From Gammaproteobacteria bacterium (GTDB taxonomy: Bacteria; Pseudomonadota; Gammaproteobacteria; Granulosicoccales; Granulosicoccaceae): 24,056 bases of DNA. Shown piece by piece: positions 1,556 to 10,317 of this stretch. Under the pieces are notes generated by a model. The model was not told where the DNA came from and did no database searches. It was given only the letters and a program-made list of their open reading frames with translations. Within the stretch, counting starts at the first letter, position 1, and each line of letters begins with the position of its first letter. The position numbers and the translations under genes were made by a program. Where the stretch lies: the NCBI GenBank assembly GCA_019634245.1, contig JAHQVR010000051.1, positions 1 to 24,056 of the forward strand, written 5' to 3'.

Positions 1556-2908
1556 TTAGCGGGGCTTGAGCGTTAGGGGGTACTCGGATAGGGGCTGGGT
1601 GGTGTGGGCGCTGGTGGTTAGGTTTGAGCGCGCTGCGACGGCCGGACACGTTGCGTTTAGGATGTAGCCAACAGCTGCGCCCATCATGCTGTCTCGATCC
1701 GATCCGCTCGGACCAGAAAAACTGTCGATTATCGGACAATCTGGGGCTAGCCCGCCAGGGTAAGTTTCACCTGCGGCGTTGGATATAGACACCTCCATCG
1801 CCGAAAGACGCTGGTCACAGCGTTCGTTCGCGATAGAGCCAAAGTATTTTCCTACTGTGGTGTCGCCTAGAGTGACAACGTCGATATACGGTCTTAACGA
1901 ATTCACCACTATTTCGGAGGCCGAGGCTGTGCCTTGGGAGGTTAATACCAACAATCTCGGTAGATTGAGTGAGCTTGCTGTTTGTCTAAAGGCAATGCGG
2001 GTGTCTGAGTCACTGTATTTGTCGTTAAAGCTCAGAGTGGCTGCCGTTTGGCCTGAGAAATCGCTTCCGGCAATGTTGGATATGAGTGTAATCGAAGAAT
2101 CGAGTGATCCACCAGGATTGCTGCGTAGATCAATTACTAACTCATCAATATCGCGCCCATCCAGATCCGCCATTACATTGCGAATTCGCTCGTTCACATC
2201 CCCGAAGAAAAACTGAATTTCAACAAACCCAACGCGTATGCCATTATCCAGTTCGTATACACGATGCTCTGGAACAGCAGTGAGGGCATAGGTAGCGCGA
2301 GCTAGTCGTTCGGTGCGGCGCTCACCATCGGCGCGTTGAATTAGGTCTAAATCGAGAAACTCAGTATCGATGCCATTAATCAAGTTGAACAATTGTTGAT
2401 TACGCAATTCACTGACAGGCACCTGATTGAGAGCAGTAATCAGATCACCACGCAAAATCGAGCCTTCAGACGCTGGGGATCCGCCATAGACACGAGTGAC
2501 TAACAAAACTTCTTCGCCGGTGTTGCTCAGCGTTGCTCGGCTAACCACTAATCCGAAATTAGTTTGATTAAAATTATCGGTGGGAACCCCAGGGCTGACT
2601 TCGGTTAAATCGACAACACTGCTAAATCTATCTGGCGGATCCACTCGGAGTACATCAAGTAATTGTTGTGGGGAAGAGAATTCGGAAGGATCGACCACCG
2701 GGACTTGATCATAGAAAAGATAGTAGTCCTGCATGGCCGAGTAGACCCACTCATTTACTGATTCCACTGAGCAGTCGATCTCGCCGGTGTCTTCAACTGG
2801 TAGAACGGGAATTTGATCGTCCTCCATCGCACTGTTATCGCCACTACCACCGCCACCGCAGGCAATCAGACTGATTCCACACAGTATGAGACTGGCAAGT
2901 CTAATCAT
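1556..2908 (-). CDS. S41-family (C-terminal processing) peptidase, lipoprotein
   Basis: A 450-residue secreted serine peptidase. The N-terminus has a short hydrophobic stretch and a lipobox L-I-A-C with Cys17, followed by a glycine-rich tether, so it is probably lipid-anchored. A PDZ-like segment lies at about 117-200. The S41 core follows, with D-L-R-S-N-P-G-G at 260-267, the catalytic Ser329 inside T-A-S-A-S-E, and Lys354 in V-G-K, 25 residues later as in CtpB and Prc. It would cleave substrates in the periplasm or at the outer membrane; the substrate is unknown. It is longer at the N-terminus than minimal CTPs and has a Ser/Thr/Pro-rich C-terminal tail of about 30 residues with no family match that I recognise. 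Its stop codon lies nine bases from the last unit of the 1335-1547 repeat. It is divergent from the PhyH gene. Confidence 0.88.
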   Translation of the reverse strand: MIRLASLILCGISLIACGGGGSGDNSAMEDDQIPVLPVEDTGEIDCSVESVNEWVYSAMQDYYLFYDQVPVVDPSEFSSPQQLLDVLRVDPPDRFSSVVDLTEVSPGVPTDNFNQTNFGLVVSRATLSNTGEEVLLVTRVYGGSPASEGSILRGDLITALNQVPVSELRNQQLFNLINGIDTEFLDLDLIQRADGERRTERLARATYALTAVPEHRVYELDNGIRVGFVEIQFFFGDVNERIRNVMADLDGRDIDELVIDLRSNPGGSLDSSITLISNIAGSDFSGQTAATLSFNDKYSDSDTRIAFRQTASSLNLPRLLVLTSQGTASASEIVVNSLRPYIDVVTLGDTTVGKYFGSIANERCDQRLSAMEVSISNAAGETYPGGLAPDCPIIDSFSGPSGSDRDSMMGAAVGYILNATCPAVAARSNLTTSAHTTQPLSEYPLTLKPR

Positions 2909-3984: not shown

Positions 3985-4013
3985 CTTTTAAATTTCCGAT
4001 TCTGAGGTACAAT
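3985..4013 (+). promoter_or_regulatory. Candidate promoter of the B12 uptake operon
   Basis: A good -10 hexamer TACAAT lies at 4008-4013, about six bases before the first riboswitch pairing segment at 4019, which is where transcription of a riboswitch leader should begin. The -35 region about 17 bases upstream (near 3985-3990) matches consensus poorly. Position relative to the riboswitch is the main support. Confidence 0.42.
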
Positions 4014-4018
4014 TAAGA

Positions 4019-4214
4019 TTCAGCTCGGTTCCGATTCAGGATTCAAAGGGAACGAAGTGAAATGCTTCGGCTGCCCCCGCAACTGTAATCGACGACACTG
4101 TCTGAAGTTCCACTGAGACAAACTAACGATTCGTTAGAACGTTTTGGGAAGGGTAGACAGTATGCCAATGCTCTAGCGTTGGCCGTTGATAGCCAGGAGA
4201 CCTGCCAAGCTGAA
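4019..4214 (+). promoter_or_regulatory. Cobalamin (B12) riboswitch
   Basis: The conserved core is directly readable. AAAGGGAA lies near 4045-4052, the junction CTGCCCCCGCAACTGTAA at 4071-4088, a GGGAAGG segment near 4146-4152, and the B12 box AGCCAGGAGACCTGCC at 4191-4206. The closing P1 helix is also visible: TTCAGCT at 4019-4025 pairs with AGCTGAA at 4208-4214, which fixes both edges. In Gram-negative bacteria this RNA represses translation or causes termination when adenosyl- or methylcobalamin is abundant. It sits directly ahead of a TonB-dependent receptor and BtuCDF-like genes, exactly the expected regulon. Confidence 0.96.
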
Positions 4215-4224
4215 GAAGCTAACG

Positions 4225-4243
4225 ACCAAACGGGGTGTTTGGT
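4225..4243 (+). promoter_or_regulatory. Hairpin just after the riboswitch (possible P13 / expression platform)
   Basis: A perfect 7-bp stem, ACCAAAC with GTTTGGT, closes a five-base GGGGT loop ten bases after P1. Cobalamin riboswitches use a downstream hairpin (P13) whose loop kisses L5, so this is a natural candidate. I cannot show the loop-loop pairing by eye, and no U-tract follows, so transcription termination is unlikely here. Confidence 0.4.
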
Positions 4244-4341
4244 ATCGCGAGCACAGCAGGCTTTGGTGTTTTCTCACCCTTCGTTCTCTGTCATCTTCGC
4301 GCGCCCCCTCGCAGTGGTCTTACATCATTCGGGCGTGCGAT

Positions 4342-6366
4342 TTGGGTTCATGCGACTACATAACGCTGATTTTTTCGATTGCCTGTGCAGTCGGCTCGTC
4401 TGTGTCTCTAGCTAACTCAACGGTTTCTACTGATGGGGAACATCATCATTCCCTGCAATTACTGACGTTAAATGACAACGCACTCGATACCATTGAGGTA
4501 ATTGCAGAACATCCCAGCACCGGTGAGGTGGTGCATGAAGAGTTTACCGGTAGCCATCAACGTATCCCCAGAGAAGAGTTGCAACGTCGAGATATTACCG
4601 TTAGCGATATTTTAGCCCACGAAGCAGGCGTGCAGAGTCGGCAAATGGGTGGCTTTGGCGCGTTTTCCAGCTTCACAGTTCGCGCTGCTTCGGCCGCACA
4701 AACCGGTGTGTACCTAGATGGCGTGTTGCTCAATAGCGCTGGCAATGCCGTAGTGGATTTATCCATGCTCGAACTCATGAACATTGAATCCATTGATGTG
4801 TATAGAGGTGCCAGTCCAGCACAGTTGGGCTTTGGATCTATCGGAGGCGCTATTAATTTAAGAAGCCCAACCGTGTTGCGTGAAGAGACTTCAACAATTG
4901 CGCTGTTGGGTGTTGGCAGTTTCAATACGCAGCAAGCACAACTACTGCATCGTTCAAGAAGCGGTGCTTGGGATGTAGTGGGGGCGTTTAGTTTGCAGCA
5001 AAGTGACAACGATTATTCATTTCTGGATAGTGCCGGAACACCCTTGAATGCCGATGATGACACACAACAAAATCGACACAATGCTCAGGTGCGACGCGTC
5101 AGTGGATTAGCCCGTGCCGGTATTCAATGGTCAGCACAGTCTCGATCTGATGTTACGCTGCAAACGACACAGCGTGAATTAGGAGTGCCAGAATGGCGCA
5201 ATGCTGAAAATAATGAAGCCGAATTAGTTTCAGATAATCTGCAACTGCAATTAACTCATACTATCGATTCGATAGGCGATTGGAATAGCCGACACACAGC
5301 GTATTGGCACGCCCAAAATGAGTTGTTTGATGACAGTCTAGCTCAAGTTGGGTTAGGAGCGAAGCGAACCGACTCGGAGAATCAAACTAAAGGACTATTG
5401 AGTTATTGGGAGCATATCGGATCTGCACGAACATCCAGTGTGAGTATGGAAGTTCGTGAAGAAACCAAACTGGCGAGTGACTTACTAGCTACCCAATTCA
5501 ACTATCGAGTACAACGTCAGAGTGTCAATGCCTCTGTTCAAAGTGTTAGCTACCATTGGAATGACAGGTTAATGATTGTTCCGGCTATTCGCTGGCAGTC
5601 GCATCAAAACCGCTATGATCGCATTACCGGCATTGATAGCGCCGAGCGCAGCGCCGGTGAACTGAGCCCTAGCTTAGGTGTTCGTTATAGTGCTAGTAAT
5701 ACGCTGAGTGCTAGAGCGAACCTGGGGCGTTACTACAGAGAACCCTCCTTCGATGAATTGTTCGCCAGCCGGGGTTTATATACGGGAAACAGTGACCTTG
5801 CACCGGAGGAAGGCCTCAACGCCGATATAGGTATCCATTGGCAACCGACTGAATCCTTAGAGTTGGATTCGTCGGTATTTGCCAGTTGGCGGGACGAACT
5901 GATTTCCACCGTTTACGATGCCCGCGGCATTGGCCGCACGATAAATTTAGGGAAAGCGCAAATACTTGGCGTTGAACTCAGTGCTAATTGGTCGATTACT
6001 CCGACAGTGTCTATGCGCGCGAATGTTACCGTGCAAGATGCTAAAAGCCTACTTGAGTTTGATGCCTTCGACGGTAAGCAATTACCTGGAGAGGCACAGC
6101 AAAGTGCTTATTTTCGACTGCAACGTACGCAACACAATACACGAGTGTTCATAGAAACCGATGGAGCCTGGAATCGCTTTTATGACCAGGCCAATGTGTT
6201 GCCCGCGAAAGACCGCTGGGTACAAAACCTCGGCGTTGATTGGCACCGTGGGCGCTGGACTATTAGTGGAGCGCTTACCAATTTAACTGATCAAAACGTC
6301 GAAGACTTTAATGGTCTGCCTCGTCCAGGTCGGTCTTTTTCACTCTCTATCACCACTGAACTATAA
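4342..6366 (+). CDS. btuB: TonB-dependent outer-membrane receptor, BtuB-like (cobalamin)
   Basis: An outer-membrane beta-barrel receptor under the B12 riboswitch, expected to bind cobalamin and import it with TonB energy. After a signal-like segment (I-T-L-I-F-S-I-A-C-A-V-G-S-S-V-S-L-A) a TonB-box-like D-T-I-E-V-I-A appears near residues 49-55. The plug domain follows, with V-S-D-I-L-A, V-Y-L-D-G-V and I-D-V-Y-R-G-A-S-P-A-Q-L-G-F-G-S-I-G-G-A typical of the family, then the barrel, ending in an aromatic/hydrophobic strand (S-F-S-L-S-I-T-T-E-L). Length is 674 residues from this start. The start is doubtful: the frame is open from inside the riboswitch, has no ATG in the leader, and the TTG at 4342 lacks a ribosome binding site. 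An out-of-frame ATG lies at 4350 (see findings). Substrate is inferred from the riboswitch and the btuCDF neighbours. Confidence 0.88.
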   Translation: MGSCDYITLIFSIACAVGSSVSLANSTVSTDGEHHHSLQLLTLNDNALDTIEVIAEHPSTGEVVHEEFTGSHQRIPREELQRRDITVSDILAHEAGVQSRQMGGFGAFSSFTVRAASAAQTGVYLDGVLLNSAGNAVVDLSMLELMNIESIDVYRGASPAQLGFGSIGGAINLRSPTVLREETSTIALLGVGSFNTQQAQLLHRSRSGAWDVVGAFSLQQSDNDYSFLDSAGTPLNADDDTQQNRHNAQVRRVSGLARAGIQWSAQSRSDVTLQTTQRELGVPEWRNAENNEAELVSDNLQLQLTHTIDSIGDWNSRHTAYWHAQNELFDDSLAQVGLGAKRTDSENQTKGLLSYWEHIGSARTSSVSMEVREETKLASDLLATQFNYRVQRQSVNASVQSVSYHWNDRLMIVPAIRWQSHQNRYDRITGIDSAERSAGELSPSLGVRYSASNTLSARANLGRYYREPSFDELFASRGLYTGNSDLAPEEGLNADIGIHWQPTESLELDSSVFASWRDELISTVYDARGIGRTINLGKAQILGVELSANWSITPTVSMRANVTVQDAKSLLEFDAFDGKQLPGEAQQSAYFRLQRTQHNTRVFIETDGAWNRFYDQANVLPAKDRWVQNLGVDWHRGRWTISGALTNLTDQNVEDFNGLPRPGRSFSLSITTEL

Positions 6367-6383: not shown

Positions 6384-7661
6384 ATGCTGTTGTCATCCTC
6401 TCGTTCTCATTCACCGACTCGCTGGTTAAGCGTCTTTGTGATCAGTGCCGTTCTCTTAAGCGGTTGTAGTTCCTCAGATGACTCCGTGGGTGAGTCTGAC
6501 GGTACGGACAGTGGATCCGATGGTGGAATGGACGGTGGCACCGACGGTGGGAGCACCGACGGCTCAACCGACGGCACCGGTGGATCTTCTAGTTTTGCCT
6601 TTGTCTCGGCAGCCACTCCCACGTTCGATGCTGGTCAAATCGAGAGATTCACACTCGGTGAGACAATTGCTGCAGCCGGCGCATACCCTGCAACTCTGTC
6701 AGATATCACCGTACGCACAAATGGTAGTGATGTGTTCCAGGTGGGCAGACTGGATTTGGAATCCATAACCCGATATACCACCGAGGAGTTGACCACACCT
6801 GTTTATCAGTACTCAGTGTTGAATGAGGAGACAGCTCCCAATACCTACGACATTGTGTTCGCCAGTGCAACCAAGGCGTATGTGTTGCAGTACGAAAGCT
6901 CCAATATACTTATAGTGAATCCGTCAGCGAGTAGTGAAGCAGAGTTTATAACCGGTAGCATAGATATCAGTGCTTATGATGAAGATGCACCTAATGCCAC
7001 CAGTGGCGTTATCGCTAATGGAAAGCTTTTCGTACTGCTTCAGCGTCTAACGGGTTTCAACCCGGTTAACCCAGGCTATGTAGCCGTGTTTGATGTAGAA
7101 ACTGATGCTGAAATATCTACCGGCATGAATAGCGAAGGACTCAATGGTATCGCTTTAACCTCACTGAATCCGGACACTTTGCAATATGTGGCTAGTAGCA
7201 ACGATATTTTAGTTAACGGCCGAGGCAACATCAATGTGGTATTCAACGAACTGCCCGGCGATCCGTACATGGGCGGTGTGGAAATTATTGATGCAGACTC
7301 CTATGTCCGTGATCTACTCGTTGATGATGGCACTGAAACTGACAACGATGGTTTCTTTTTCGCATCCATTCAGGCAGGTGACACCAGAGGTTATGTCATT
7401 ACCTCTGTGGGATACCAAGACAACACACTCCGGTCATACAACGTGGCCACAGGGCTTCTCGAAGATGGTGCAGTGGCTGGGTTGGAGTCGATGGACCTAA
7501 CGGGTCTTGCTATTGGGCCGTCGGGTAATCTTTGGGTGGGTATTGGAGGAATCGAGCCCGGATATCTGCGGATCAACCCAGAGGACAATTCCTTAGTCGG
7601 CGAAAAGGTGGACACGGAGTTTGTACCTAACCACATAGTATTTGTGGACGGCGGCAGTTAA
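6384..7661 (+). CDS. Propeller-like outer-membrane lipoprotein inside the B12 operon (unnamed)
   Basis: A lipoprotein of 425 residues; I do not recognise a named family. The signal peptide ends in L-L-S-G-C, with lipidated Cys28 and Ser at +2, which favours outer-membrane sorting. Residues about 35-70 are a low-complexity Asp/Gly/Ser/Thr tether built from D-G-G-T/D-G-S-T repeats. The rest repeats a beta-propeller-like pattern of strand pairs: S-S-N-I-L-I-V-N-P, G-Y-V-A-V-F-D-V-E-T, N-T-L-R-S-Y-N-V-A-T-G, N-L-W-V-G-I-G-G, with YncE-like spacing. The ATG at 6384 follows an AAGGA by nine bases; a TTG at 6378 is too close. It begins 17 bases after the receptor stop and overlaps btuC by 20 bases, so it belongs to the B12 operon. 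By place and build it could bind cobalamin outside the receptor, like Bacteroides BtuG; this is inference. Confidence 0.8.
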   Translation: MLLSSSRSHSPTRWLSVFVISAVLLSGCSSSDDSVGESDGTDSGSDGGMDGGTDGGSTDGSTDGTGGSSSFAFVSAATPTFDAGQIERFTLGETIAAAGAYPATLSDITVRTNGSDVFQVGRLDLESITRYTTEELTTPVYQYSVLNEETAPNTYDIVFASATKAYVLQYESSNILIVNPSASSEAEFITGSIDISAYDEDAPNATSGVIANGKLFVLLQRLTGFNPVNPGYVAVFDVETDAEISTGMNSEGLNGIALTSLNPDTLQYVASSNDILVNGRGNINVVFNELPGDPYMGGVEIIDADSYVRDLLVDDGTETDNDGFFFASIQAGDTRGYVITSVGYQDNTLRSYNVATGLLEDGAVAGLESMDLTGLAIGPSGNLWVGIGGIEPGYLRINPEDNSLVGEKVDTEFVPNHIVFVDGGS

Positions 7662-8652
7662 CACGCCGTCGCCGATAACGTTATGGCTAACACTGACAGT
7701 CGTTGTACTGTCGGTGATGAGCCTGTCGGTGGGAGCCGAGTCGCTTAGCTTACTCGACACGCTAACGCGGTTGTGGAGTAATCCTGATGCGATAGATGTC
7801 ATCATATTGCGTGAAGTACGGTTACCCAGAACCCTGATCGCAGTGGTCGCTGGTGCTACGTTAGGGTTGTGCGGTGCCGCTATGCAGGGGTTGTTGCGAA
7901 ATCCACTGGCTAGCCCTGGCTTGGTCGGCAGTGCTAGCGGTGCGGCCTTGGGTGCGGTGACGGTGTTGTATTTCGGAACCGGCTTTTTGCACCCCCAAAG
8001 TGTCCCGCTCGCTGGTATGCTCGGATCGCTTCTCGCGACCACCTTGGTGTACGTATTGGCTGGCCGCGATGCCAACGTAACGACATTGATTTTATCTGGA
8101 GTCGCGGTCAATGCTATGGCAACAGCGGCGATGTCACTGTTATTAAATTTTGCTCCTAGTCCTTATGCTGTTCAGGAGTTGGTGCTCTGGACGTTAGGCG
8201 ATTTGAGTGATCGGTCCATTCACGATTTTTGGTTGATGCTACCGTGCACACTATTGGGTTGGTTTCTTCTGGTGGGCGTTGGTCGACAGCTTGATGCGCT
8301 AACTCTCGGTGAGCGCACCGCTCAGAGCCTGGGTATCAATCCGCGCCGATTACGCTGGCGAGTGTTTATAGCGGTGTCTATGGCTGTGGGCGCTAGTGTT
8401 GCGACCACCGGAATGATCGGTTTTATAGGGCTTGTCGTTCCTCATCTATTACGCCCCTGGGTGGGCTATGAACCGAGGCGGTTGTTGTTAAGCTCTGCCT
8501 TGGGGGGCAGCGCCATGCTGCTTGCTGCCGACTTAGGCGTGCGTCTAATACCATCACCGGTTGCGCTAAAAGTCGGCGTATTAACCTCGCTGGTTGGTGC
8601 ACCCTTTTTCCTTCACCTCATTTTAAGGAGTCGGCGTGATGGCTATCGATAG
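7642..8652 (+). CDS. btuC: Cobalamin ABC transporter permease, BtuC-like (FecCD family)
   Basis: A polytopic inner-membrane permease of 336 residues (E. coli BtuC is about 326). Family landmarks are plain: R-L-P-R-T-L-I-A-V-V-A-G near the end of the first periplasmic loop, G-A-A-M-Q-G-L-L-R-N-P-L-A-S-P-G, the Gly-rich helix after it, and G-F-I-G-L-V-V-P-H-L-L-R, which forms the coupling helix that docks on the ATPase. Two copies would pair with two BtuD subunits. The start is a TTG within the last codons of the lipoprotein gene (20-base overlap); later starts (GTG 7714, ATG 7717) would delete the first membrane helix. There is no Shine-Dalgarno, so translation is probably coupled to the upstream gene. 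FecCD permeases also serve haem and siderophores; the riboswitch points to cobalamin. Confidence 0.92.
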   Translation: MWTAAVNTPSPITLWLTLTVVVLSVMSLSVGAESLSLLDTLTRLWSNPDAIDVIILREVRLPRTLIAVVAGATLGLCGAAMQGLLRNPLASPGLVGSASGAALGAVTVLYFGTGFLHPQSVPLAGMLGSLLATTLVYVLAGRDANVTTLILSGVAVNAMATAAMSLLLNFAPSPYAVQELVLWTLGDLSDRSIHDFWLMLPCTLLGWFLLVGVGRQLDALTLGERTAQSLGINPRRLRWRVFIAVSMAVGASVATTGMIGFIGLVVPHLLRPWVGYEPRRLLLSSALGGSAMLLAADLGVRLIPSPVALKVGVLTSLVGAPFFLHLILRSRRDGYR

Positions 8653-9442
8653 TTCAATAGCACGAGCCACTCCGCTACTGGCGGCTGAATCCATGAGTGT
8701 GGTTCGTGGCGGTAAGTCGATACTCAACGCTGTCTCTCTGTCACTATCGCCGCATGAATTGGTTGGCTTGGTTGGGCCGAATGGTGCGGGTAAGTCAACT
8801 CTACTCAGTGGCCTTGCCGGACTGATCCGGCTTGATAGTGGCCAAGTTTCGCTAAAAGGCAAACCGATTGAGTCCTATTCAGGCAGTGATCGAGCGAAGC
8901 TGTTGGGTTGGATGGAGCAGCTAGCCTCAGCGCATTGGCCTGTAAGTGCTGAACACTTGGTGTTACTCGGTCGAATACCTTATTTATCTCGATGGCAATC
9001 GGTCAGTAAGACTGATCGACAACTTGTGGCTGAGATGATGCGTGCTACCGACTGTTATGGGCTTAAGGATCAGGCGGTGTCGACACTCTCTGGAGGTGAA
9101 CTCAACCGCGTATTGCTGGCTCGTGTGCTTGCGTCTGAGCCTTCGGTTTTACTGGCTGACGAACCCACAGCGGCATTGGATATTGGGCATCAACTACAAA
9201 CGATGGAATTGCTCCGTGAGTTTTGTACGAAGGGTAGAGGCTGTATTGTCGTACTCCACGATCTTTCACTAGCCGCTCGGTATTGTGATCGATTGGTGTT
9301 GTTACACGAGGCACAAGTGGTGGCCAATGGTGCCCCGCTGGATGTTCTCAGCGAACGCAATGTACATGATGTGTATGGGGTAGAGCTGGCTGTGTTCGAT
9401 GGAGAGGTTCCTACGCTAGTACCGATGCGTCGTTCACTATGA
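8639..9442 (+). CDS. btuD: Cobalamin ABC transporter ATP-binding protein, BtuD-like
   Basis: The cytoplasmic ATPase that drives the BtuC permease, 267 residues. Walker A G-P-N-G-A-G-K-S-T is at 46-54, the ABC signature L-S-G-G-E at 150-154, Walker B V-L-L-A-D-E-P at 170-176 with its catalytic Glu, and the switch His at about 207 (V-L-H-D-L). The Q-loop segment reads W-M-E-Q. The ATG at 8639 is favoured over an adjacent GTG at 8636 because AAGGAG at 8625-8630 lies eight bases upstream. It overlaps the end of btuC by 14 bases and its stop overlaps the btuF start, the usual tight packing of an importer. Sequence alone would also allow a haem or siderophore importer; B12 follows from context. Confidence 0.93.
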   Translation: MAIDSSIARATPLLAAESMSVVRGGKSILNAVSLSLSPHELVGLVGPNGAGKSTLLSGLAGLIRLDSGQVSLKGKPIESYSGSDRAKLLGWMEQLASAHWPVSAEHLVLLGRIPYLSRWQSVSKTDRQLVAEMMRATDCYGLKDQAVSTLSGGELNRVLLARVLASEPSVLLADEPTAALDIGHQLQTMELLREFCTKGRGCIVVLHDLSLAARYCDRLVLLHEAQVVANGAPLDVLSERNVHDVYGVELAVFDGEVPTLVPMRRSL

Positions 9443-10317
9443 ACGTGAATGGCAAACTCCGAGGGTTAACTAAAATGTTCGGTCTCGGCTGTTTGTGTAT
9501 CGCAGTTACTTTGGCTGATACTTACGCTTCCGATGCCTCTTCGTCCGCCGAGTTGGCCAAACCTACTGTGGTTTCTATCAATTTGTGTGCAGATCAGTTG
9601 ACCTTGGTATTGGCGGAGCCGGTGCAGATTTTATCGCTCTCCCATCTATCCCATGAAGAAGGCGGTTCAGTGTATGTTGATTTAGCGAAGCGCTATCCAA
9701 CTAATACTGGCCTGGTCGAGCAGGTGCTTCCCCTGCAGCCTGATATTGTCATCGCTGGGCAATACACTTCGCGCTATACGCTGCGCATGCTCGAAGCTGT
9801 TGGTTTGCGAGTAGAAATTCTACCGATTGCCGATTCGATTGAGTCGATGCTCGGAAATATAACTAATCTATCTATTTGGCTTGGACAATCCCGCAAAGGG
9901 GAGGCATTGGTTAAAAAGCTTCGTCAACGCGTGGAAGCTCTCTCCAGTGAGTCTCTCTCTCACCGACCTCGGGCTGCTGTCTACGATCCGAATGGATATA
10001 CCGTCGGTGAGAACAGTCTACGGGGTGAGGTTTTGGAGTTGGCTGGTTGGCACAACGTTGCGTCTGATGTCGGAATAACCCGCTATGGGCAAATTTCGTT
10101 AGAAACGCTGCTGATATTGAACCCAGATGCCACCATCGAATCTCCTTATAGTCCCGACACCTGGTCCAGAGCTCAAGCGTTAAGTCTGCACCCTGCGATA
10201 AAAAGTCGTGGACTAGATGCGGACGTTATTCAAGTACCGAGTGCGCAGACTATCTGCGGGGGACCATGGACTGTAGATCTTATTGAGCAGCTGCGTTTGA
10301 AAGTGCTACGCGAATGA
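9439..10317 (+). CDS. btuF: Periplasmic cobalamin-binding protein, BtuF-like
   Basis: A class III (TroA/BtuF fold) periplasmic binding protein of 292 residues that would hand cobalamin to BtuCD. A signal peptide covers about the first 30 residues (hydrophobic F-G-L-G-C-L-C-I-A-V-T-L-A, cleavage near T-Y-A). The first lobe opens with V-V-S-I-N-L-C-A-D-Q-L-T, then L-Q-P-D-I-V-I-A-G, the standard motif of the family; a long linking helix spans about 140-175 and the C-terminal lobe ends with G-G-P-W-T-V-D-L-I-E-Q-L. The ATG overlaps the btuD stop (ATGA), so translation is probably coupled. An in-frame ATG at 9475 would also leave a workable signal peptide. The gene closes the operon; only 57 bases separate it from the convergent dehydrogenase and no good terminator is visible. 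Confidence 0.9.
   Translation: MNVNGKLRGLTKMFGLGCLCIAVTLADTYASDASSSAELAKPTVVSINLCADQLTLVLAEPVQILSLSHLSHEEGGSVYVDLAKRYPTNTGLVEQVLPLQPDIVIAGQYTSRYTLRMLEAVGLRVEILPIADSIESMLGNITNLSIWLGQSRKGEALVKKLRQRVEALSSESLSHRPRAAVYDPNGYTVGENSLRGEVLELAGWHNVASDVGITRYGQISLETLLILNPDATIESPYSPDTWSRAQALSLHPAIKSRGLDADVIQVPSAQTICGGPWTVDLIEQLRLKVLRE

Follow-up and report, generated by a model that had tools for sequence, protein, structure and literature searches.

A BtuG-like propeller lipoprotein encoded between a TonB-dependent receptor and btuC in a cobalamin riboswitch-linked operon of a gammaproteobacterium

The window analysed here is a stretch of 24,056 bp (contig JAHQVR010000051.1, assembly GCA_019634245.1) from a gammaproteobacterium affiliated with the Granulosicoccaceae. 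It contains a vitamin B12 (cobalamin) uptake locus in which a gene for a predicted lipoprotein with similarity to BtuG, the B12-capturing surface protein of Bacteroides, is located directly downstream of a TonB-dependent receptor gene. Riboswitch, receptor, lipoprotein, btuC, btuD and btuF form a single same-strand unit that extends through position 10317:

4009..4223, + strand, cobalamin riboswitch aptamer (RF00174; Rfam, 93.3 bits, E 2.5e-22)
4342..6366, + strand, BtuB-like TonB-dependent receptor, start uncertain (Plug and barrel Pfam domains, PDB sequence match)
6384..7661, + strand, BtuG-like propeller lipoprotein (signal peptide, lipobox, predicted propeller, profiles)
7642..8652, + strand, btuC-like permease (FecCD), with TTG 7642 as inferred start
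8636..9442, + strand, btuD-like ABC ATPase (domain match)
9439..10317, + strand, btuF-like periplasmic binding protein (Peripla_BP_2; domain match)

The original prediction, made from the sequence alone, had placed the lipoprotein gene between the receptor and btuC in a riboswitch-controlled unit and described a 20-base overlap with btuC. Both statements agree with the annotation, the overlap given the inferred start of btuC. The receptor stop codon (6366) is followed by 17 bases before the lipoprotein gene begins, and the successive overlaps from this gene to btuF, as listed, are 20, 17, and 4 bases. On the + strand, the terminator-like site nearest to the receptor-lipoprotein junction (6312-6332) lies within the coding end of the receptor; the region contains nine such sites, slightly over the chance expectation of 6.3 (sd 2.6). 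When the receptor was compared by sequence with solved structures, the best match was BtuB1 of Bacteroides thetaiotaomicron (8blw_A, 2.3e-15), and 10 of the first 11 PDB matches were BtuB, the remaining one (9gbc) being a TonB-linked receptor by name. The receptor frame directly below the riboswitch lacks an in-frame ATG; its first TTG (4186) falls in the aptamer, TTG 4342 could serve as start, and position 4350 carries an out-of-frame ATG (region 4186-4381). An unusual start codon or a sequence error is possible.

The lipoprotein gene extends from ATG 6384 to the stop at 7661 and codes for 425 amino acids, while the mechanically called open reading frame (ORF) opens at TTG 6378. The protein carries the lipobox LLSGC with Cys28 and a Ser at +2, followed by a tether of 41 residues (29-69; 13 Gly, 11 Ser, 9 Asp, 5 Thr), just as the initial description of a Ser+2 lipoprotein with a long Asp/Gly tether had it. 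The AlphaFold model shows a seven-bladed propeller (residues 70-421) that is closed by a C-terminal strand and consists almost wholly of beta strands and loops, with pLDDT values mostly above 90; the propeller-like strand pattern recognised earlier is thereby borne out. The propeller has a net charge of -37, and an acidic character is common in marine proteins. For BtuG2, the consulted parts of the structural paper describe a negatively charged binding face (PMC10404256). Neither Pfam nor NCBIfam gave an assignment over cut-off for the window lipoprotein, and a single-sequence PDB search matched little except its low-complexity tether. As to the Bacteroidetes lipoprotein export signal, acidic residues follow the Cys in 7 of the 8 family members caught, against a comparison set of only two other lipoproteins, too few to give the comparison any power. 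Two members (L073:1498-3072 and L074:1054-2595) exceed 500 amino acids and have additional sequence between lipobox and propeller, which in L073 matches a Calx-beta domain. The window encodes a second predicted lipoprotein at 1556-2908 (- strand), with a Cys followed by GGGGSGDN, that on visual inspection looks like a protease of the S41 type.

A search of 5.8 billion proteins retrieved at least 44 homologues besides the window protein, none of them usefully named, and a scan of a genome collection yielded 25 loci (numbered with the prefix L), all gammaproteobacterial as judged by their titles. Most belong to the Granulosicoccaceae, with others in Solimonas, Panacagrimonas, Hydrocarboniphaga, Marinobacter, Reinekea, and further genera, the class of which we take to be Gammaproteobacteria. 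In 25/25 loci, a receptor gene directly precedes the lipoprotein gene in the same orientation. A riboswitch precedes the receptor in 22/25, and the sequences of the other three (L002, L009, L019) begin inside the receptor. Given the number of homologues and this invariant order of receptor and lipoprotein, the observation in the window is not due to chance. Same-strand btuC and btuD follow downstream in 13/25 loci. In the other 12, no btuC was detected downstream on the same strand, although the receptor is present; in this group, the L025 sequence stops within the lipoprotein gene, and btuC/btuD of L022 lie on the opposite strand. Seven of the 13 btuC-btuD loci (L003, L004, L005, L006, L008, L010, L011) showed no match to the window BtuF, and the 2.5 kb behind their btuD contain no start of a same-strand ORF of 200-400 amino acids. 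On a Hydrocarboniphaga contig, a cobalamin adenosyltransferase gene (L019:1698-2240) lies directly after the lipoprotein gene. Among the 25 loci, L001 (Granulosicoccaceae) is closest to that of the window, with identities of 81% for BtuC, 65% for the receptor, and 67% for the lipoprotein.

Genomes sampled around L001 gave a similar picture, although at least 15 of the 25 loci recur among the order and class genomes and the sets are therefore not independent. The family is present in 40/48 genomes of the order. Of these 40 matches, 30 were examined as loci and had the receptor upstream in 29, the exception (L041) starting at a contig edge. The lipoprotein is encoded 2.1-2.6 kb below a same-strand cobalamin riboswitch in 33/40 genomes. 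Among the other seven, the riboswitch was undetected in two and on a different contig in five, and in all seven the contig breaks off no more than 2.31 kb upstream of the match, in most cases leaving too little room for receptor and riboswitch. Within the class, the family occurs in 22/369 sampled genomes. Cobalamin riboswitches were detected in 266/369, including all 22 with the lipoprotein, which indicates that most genomes with this riboswitch manage without the lipoprotein. Eighteen lipoprotein-carrying genomes of the class sample lie beyond the order set, and each has an upstream same-strand receptor match (18/18; weak in L080). A further sequence, L081, is the second half of a gene split across two contigs in one of these 18 genomes and has no receptor match. 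The phylum sample contained the family in 1/398 genomes, namely the centre genome itself, and plasmids contained no lipoprotein match at E 1e-3. In this survey, which had been set beforehand as a refuting test, homologues were not found scattered away from B12 loci. In one genome (G049, L056), the lipoprotein profile found five matches, each on a different contig and four of them incomplete. Four cobalamin riboswitches were also detected there, and the extra matches are possibly paralogues.

Foldseek searches against the PDB placed the predicted fold next to BtuG, for which structures of BtuG1, BtuG2, and BtuG3 of Bacteroides are available (8bmy, 8bmx, 8okv, 8p97, 3dsm). All 13 best matches of the window model and the top 16 of the AlphaFold model of a distant member from Marinobacter, likewise a seven-bladed propeller, were BtuG chains. 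Some of these closest structures contain bound cobalamin. XusB was the next match after BtuG. This fold similarity could point to a propeller that binds siderophores as XusB (DUF4374) does, with a receptor that is under a cobalamin riboswitch only incidentally. We assign this reading a very slim chance and rejected it, given the linkage to the riboswitch, the adjoining btuCDF or (L019) cobalamin adenosyltransferase genes, a receptor whose nearest relative is BtuB, and a window protein without a DUF4374 match; DUF4374 occurs in just 2/369 class genomes. The distant member L080 comes from a genome with a DUF4374 gene elsewhere, on another contig. The database protein P0169, which is identical to L080 at 402/404 residues, carries a precomputed DUF4374 tag that was not reproduced by hmmscan.

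Sequence profiles were built from the window lipoprotein and 39 of its homologues (alignment A1), a more diverse set of family members (A3), and A3 minus the doubtful member L080 (A5). The lipobox Cys is conserved in 39/40 rows of A1, the other row having a gap, and in 40/40 of A5. For BtuG, an alignment (A2) comprised a record from Bacteroides finegoldii that agrees with the solved BtuG2 fragment at every one of 60 residues, a relative from Persicobacter, and 15 sequences taken from the 120 matches that a protein search listed. Searched against all PDB sequences, the A1 profile matched nine sequences up to E 10 (best 0.0014), and all nine were BtuG, with two generically named entries (8baz, 8puj) counted as BtuG from their aligned letters; the best-scoring common stretch is a single blade (KAYV...NP). 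By hhalign, the probabilities against A2 were 71.4% (P 3.6e-5) for A1, 97.2% (P 3.3e-11) for A3, and 96.5% (P 7.4e-10) for A5, from which L080 was excluded. The alignment is collinear over 231 columns and covers residues 151 to 420, leaving the first blades outside. Against a single control family, an alignment of 12 lactonase propellers from the same order, the respective values were 0.15% (P 0.4), 0.8% (P 0.069), and 2.2% (P 0.021). Homology to BtuG appears well supported by these profile comparisons. The control also bears on the idea of a lactonase-like propeller enzyme with an unrelated role that is carried along in the operon. Some members do show weak matches to such families (Lactonase in 6/40, Reg_prop in 5/40, or SGL), but similarity to lactonases at the profile level is small, and none of 20 lactonase propellers encoded in the same order genomes is near a riboswitch. 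The lactonase family PF10282 was rejected, as the window protein has no match and the best E among the six matching members is 0.04; of all readings considered, this is the least probable.

Co-variation of the encoded proteins was assessed by correlating pairwise distances across 14 loci with full genes, using permutations that ignore phylogeny. Lipoprotein and receptor correlated at 0.88 (partial 0.87), compared with 0.36 for the lipoprotein-BtuC pair and 0.27 for the receptor-BtuC pair. Without L003, whose BtuC is divergent, the values were 0.90, 0.65, and 0.77 (partial 0.82), and without L003 and L013 they were 0.93, 0.70, and 0.75 (partial 0.86). None of 5000 permutations reached these values in any case. 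The data support a module of receptor and lipoprotein but do not prove a contact between the two.

A role of the lipoprotein in B12 uptake is well supported. Computation established the operon and its riboswitch, the lipobox, the predicted fold, a homology to BtuG at the profile level, and the constant association with the receptor gene. On this basis we propose, with a probability of roughly 70%, that the protein is a gammaproteobacterial homologue of BtuG that acts as dedicated partner of the adjoining BtuB-like receptor, capturing corrinoid and handing it over. By analogy with BtuG, the likeliest mechanism would be that of a lid which also captures the ligand. Cobalamin scarcity would permit expression of the operon, as is typical of this riboswitch family, and the protein would be lipidated at Cys28 and probably sorted to the outer membrane. 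The propeller may then come to lie at the cell surface, above the outward-facing opening of the receptor, where a corrinoid would be bound in its central cavity and passed on to the receptor, with TonB-driven uptake and delivery to BtuF and BtuCD as presumed later steps. A more far-reaching version appears evenly balanced to us. Gammaproteobacteria, among them the Granulosicoccaceae with the kelp-associated genus Granulosicoccus, would possess a genuine lid for B12 capture at the cell surface that is homologous to BtuG and has a rebuilt corrinoid pocket. This lid would reach the surface without the Bacteroidetes export signal and form part of a receptor-lipoprotein module whose inheritance or exchange is independent of the remaining transporter.

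Several observations weigh against the proposed capture function or its relationship to BtuG. The window protein has no match to DUF5074 (PF16819), the Pfam family that B. finegoldii BtuG2 matches at 73.6 bits; in A1, 2/40 members match it weakly (best E 0.0064), and L070 scores 26.6 bits, below the cut-off of 27.2. The generic Reg_prop repeat barely passed its cut-off in 2/10 proteins scanned. The more diverse A3 profile matched 37 PDB sequences up to E 10, with a two-component sensor propeller at the top, BtuG accounting for 9 of the first 14, and generic propellers also present; a protein search with A3 gave at least 49 matches, and among those listed none was named or tagged BtuG or DUF5074. 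Five aromatic residues of the BtuG2 pocket are named in the available text of the structural paper (PMC10404256), and the hhalign mapping, unsure for single residues at this identity, equates Trp194 with F225, Tyr239 with I283, Trp272 with E318, Tyr316 with T373, and Tyr335 with I390. Among 40 diverse members, the Trp194 position is aromatic in 38 and the Tyr239 position in 20, whereas the other three are aromatic in 0/40 each. The presumed binding face, assigned by ourselves, is not favoured in conservation (loop means 0.592 vs 0.586, permutation p 0.40). Tether length ranges from 13 to 111 residues (median 20) in the 40 members, so that the tether is weak evidence for surface exposure and its suggested purpose of reaching the surface is not supported. 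A search for SlipAM found it in 0/48 genomes, but control genomes were equally silent, so absence does not follow; no surface-export route was identified. Finally, without L003, L015, L016, and L018 (n = 10), lipoprotein and receptor correlate at r 0.86, lipoprotein and BtuC at 0.82, and receptor and BtuC at 0.93 (partial 0.50), so the lipoprotein-receptor pair is not special in that subset. The predicted proteobacterial counterpart of BtuG thus stands as regards fold, profile homology, and B12 locus, but not as regards most of the named pocket aromatics. Because of the missing Pfam match and the differing pocket residues, the window protein is classed as a divergent BtuG-like variant and not as a BtuG member.

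Lipoproteins of Gammaproteobacteria with a neutral residue at +2 normally reside in the inner leaflet. The Ser at +2 would thus fit an outer membrane lipoprotein on the periplasmic side that accepts corrinoid beneath the receptor and delivers it to BtuF or takes over the role of BtuF, a reading that would agree as well with the missing export machine, subject to the silent controls, and with the lack of a window-BtuF match in 7/13 loci with adjoining btuC and btuD. We consider it unlikely, since the window encodes its own BtuF, the receptor is retained in the 12/25 loci without a same-strand btuC downstream, the lipoprotein in the full set co-varies more closely with the receptor than it does with BtuC (if not in the one subset), and the nearest relative, BtuG, is extracellular according to the parts consulted of PMC6143338. 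The almost absolute receptor pairing and the poorly conserved corrin-contact aromatics would also suit a protein that controls entry to the receptor as a lid or gate but does not itself bind corrinoid. This is somewhat less probable still, as one pocket aromatic is kept in 38/40 members and cobalamin is bound in several structures among the closest fold matches.

If the proposed function in corrinoid capture is correct, such a receptor-paired homologue throughout a gammaproteobacterial order would mean that lid-assisted B12 capture has an older origin or a greater mobility than assumed and did not arise as an arms-race trait confined to the gut, and the strategy may extend well beyond the gut Bacteroides in which it was described. 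The eLife 2018 study, as far as its consulted text goes, found BtuG homologues to be exclusive to Bacteroidetes within BlastP limits and 313 gut genomes (PMC6143338). Among the matches listed from the open literature (title and abstract opening), none describes a proteobacterial BtuG; an earlier report elsewhere is possible. In the literature searched, BtuG and Gammaproteobacteria are mentioned together in a single paper, whose passages deal with the BAM complex. The findings may also be relevant for algae, as a study of one kelp microbiome describes Granulosicoccus as its most abundant member (PMC9238374). In the available portions of that paper, the authors stress B12 synthesis, with at least 10 biosynthesis genes in 7/8 genomes; corrin-ring genes were listed for 1/8 and btuB for 7/8, from which we infer that some Granulosicoccus may be scavengers. 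For outer membrane biology, the question is raised how such a lipoprotein would get to the surface in Gammaproteobacteria.

Compared with known systems, the locus shares a BtuB-type receptor, BtuF, BtuC, and BtuD with BtuBFCD of Escherichia coli, an organism that has no BtuG homologue according to the consulted text of PMC6143338. BtuK1 (PDB 9s6c, titled B12 binding protein) is a much weaker match than BtuG. XusB of Bacteroides is likewise a propeller lipoprotein paired with a TonB receptor and is itself surface-located, as stated in the excerpted source (PMC13142918), but it binds siderophores, matches the fold less well, and belongs to DUF4374, to which the window protein shows no match. BtuG1, BtuG2, and BtuG3 come closest, BtuG being portrayed in the accessible parts of the 2023 structural paper (PMC10404256) as a lid that sits on BtuB outside the cell: they too are lipoproteins with a linker and a seven-bladed propeller (predicted in the window protein), their genes adjoin btuB within a cobalamin-riboswitch unit, and sequence homology is detectable by profiles. 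Unlike them, the window protein is encoded by a gammaproteobacterial host, in which the Bacteroidetes export signal is not established, is only about 15% identical, has no DUF5074 match, and belongs to a family without three of the five named pocket aromatics. The lipoprotein gene follows the receptor gene in the window and in Persicobacter (L029), whereas it precedes the receptor in B. finegoldii (L028).
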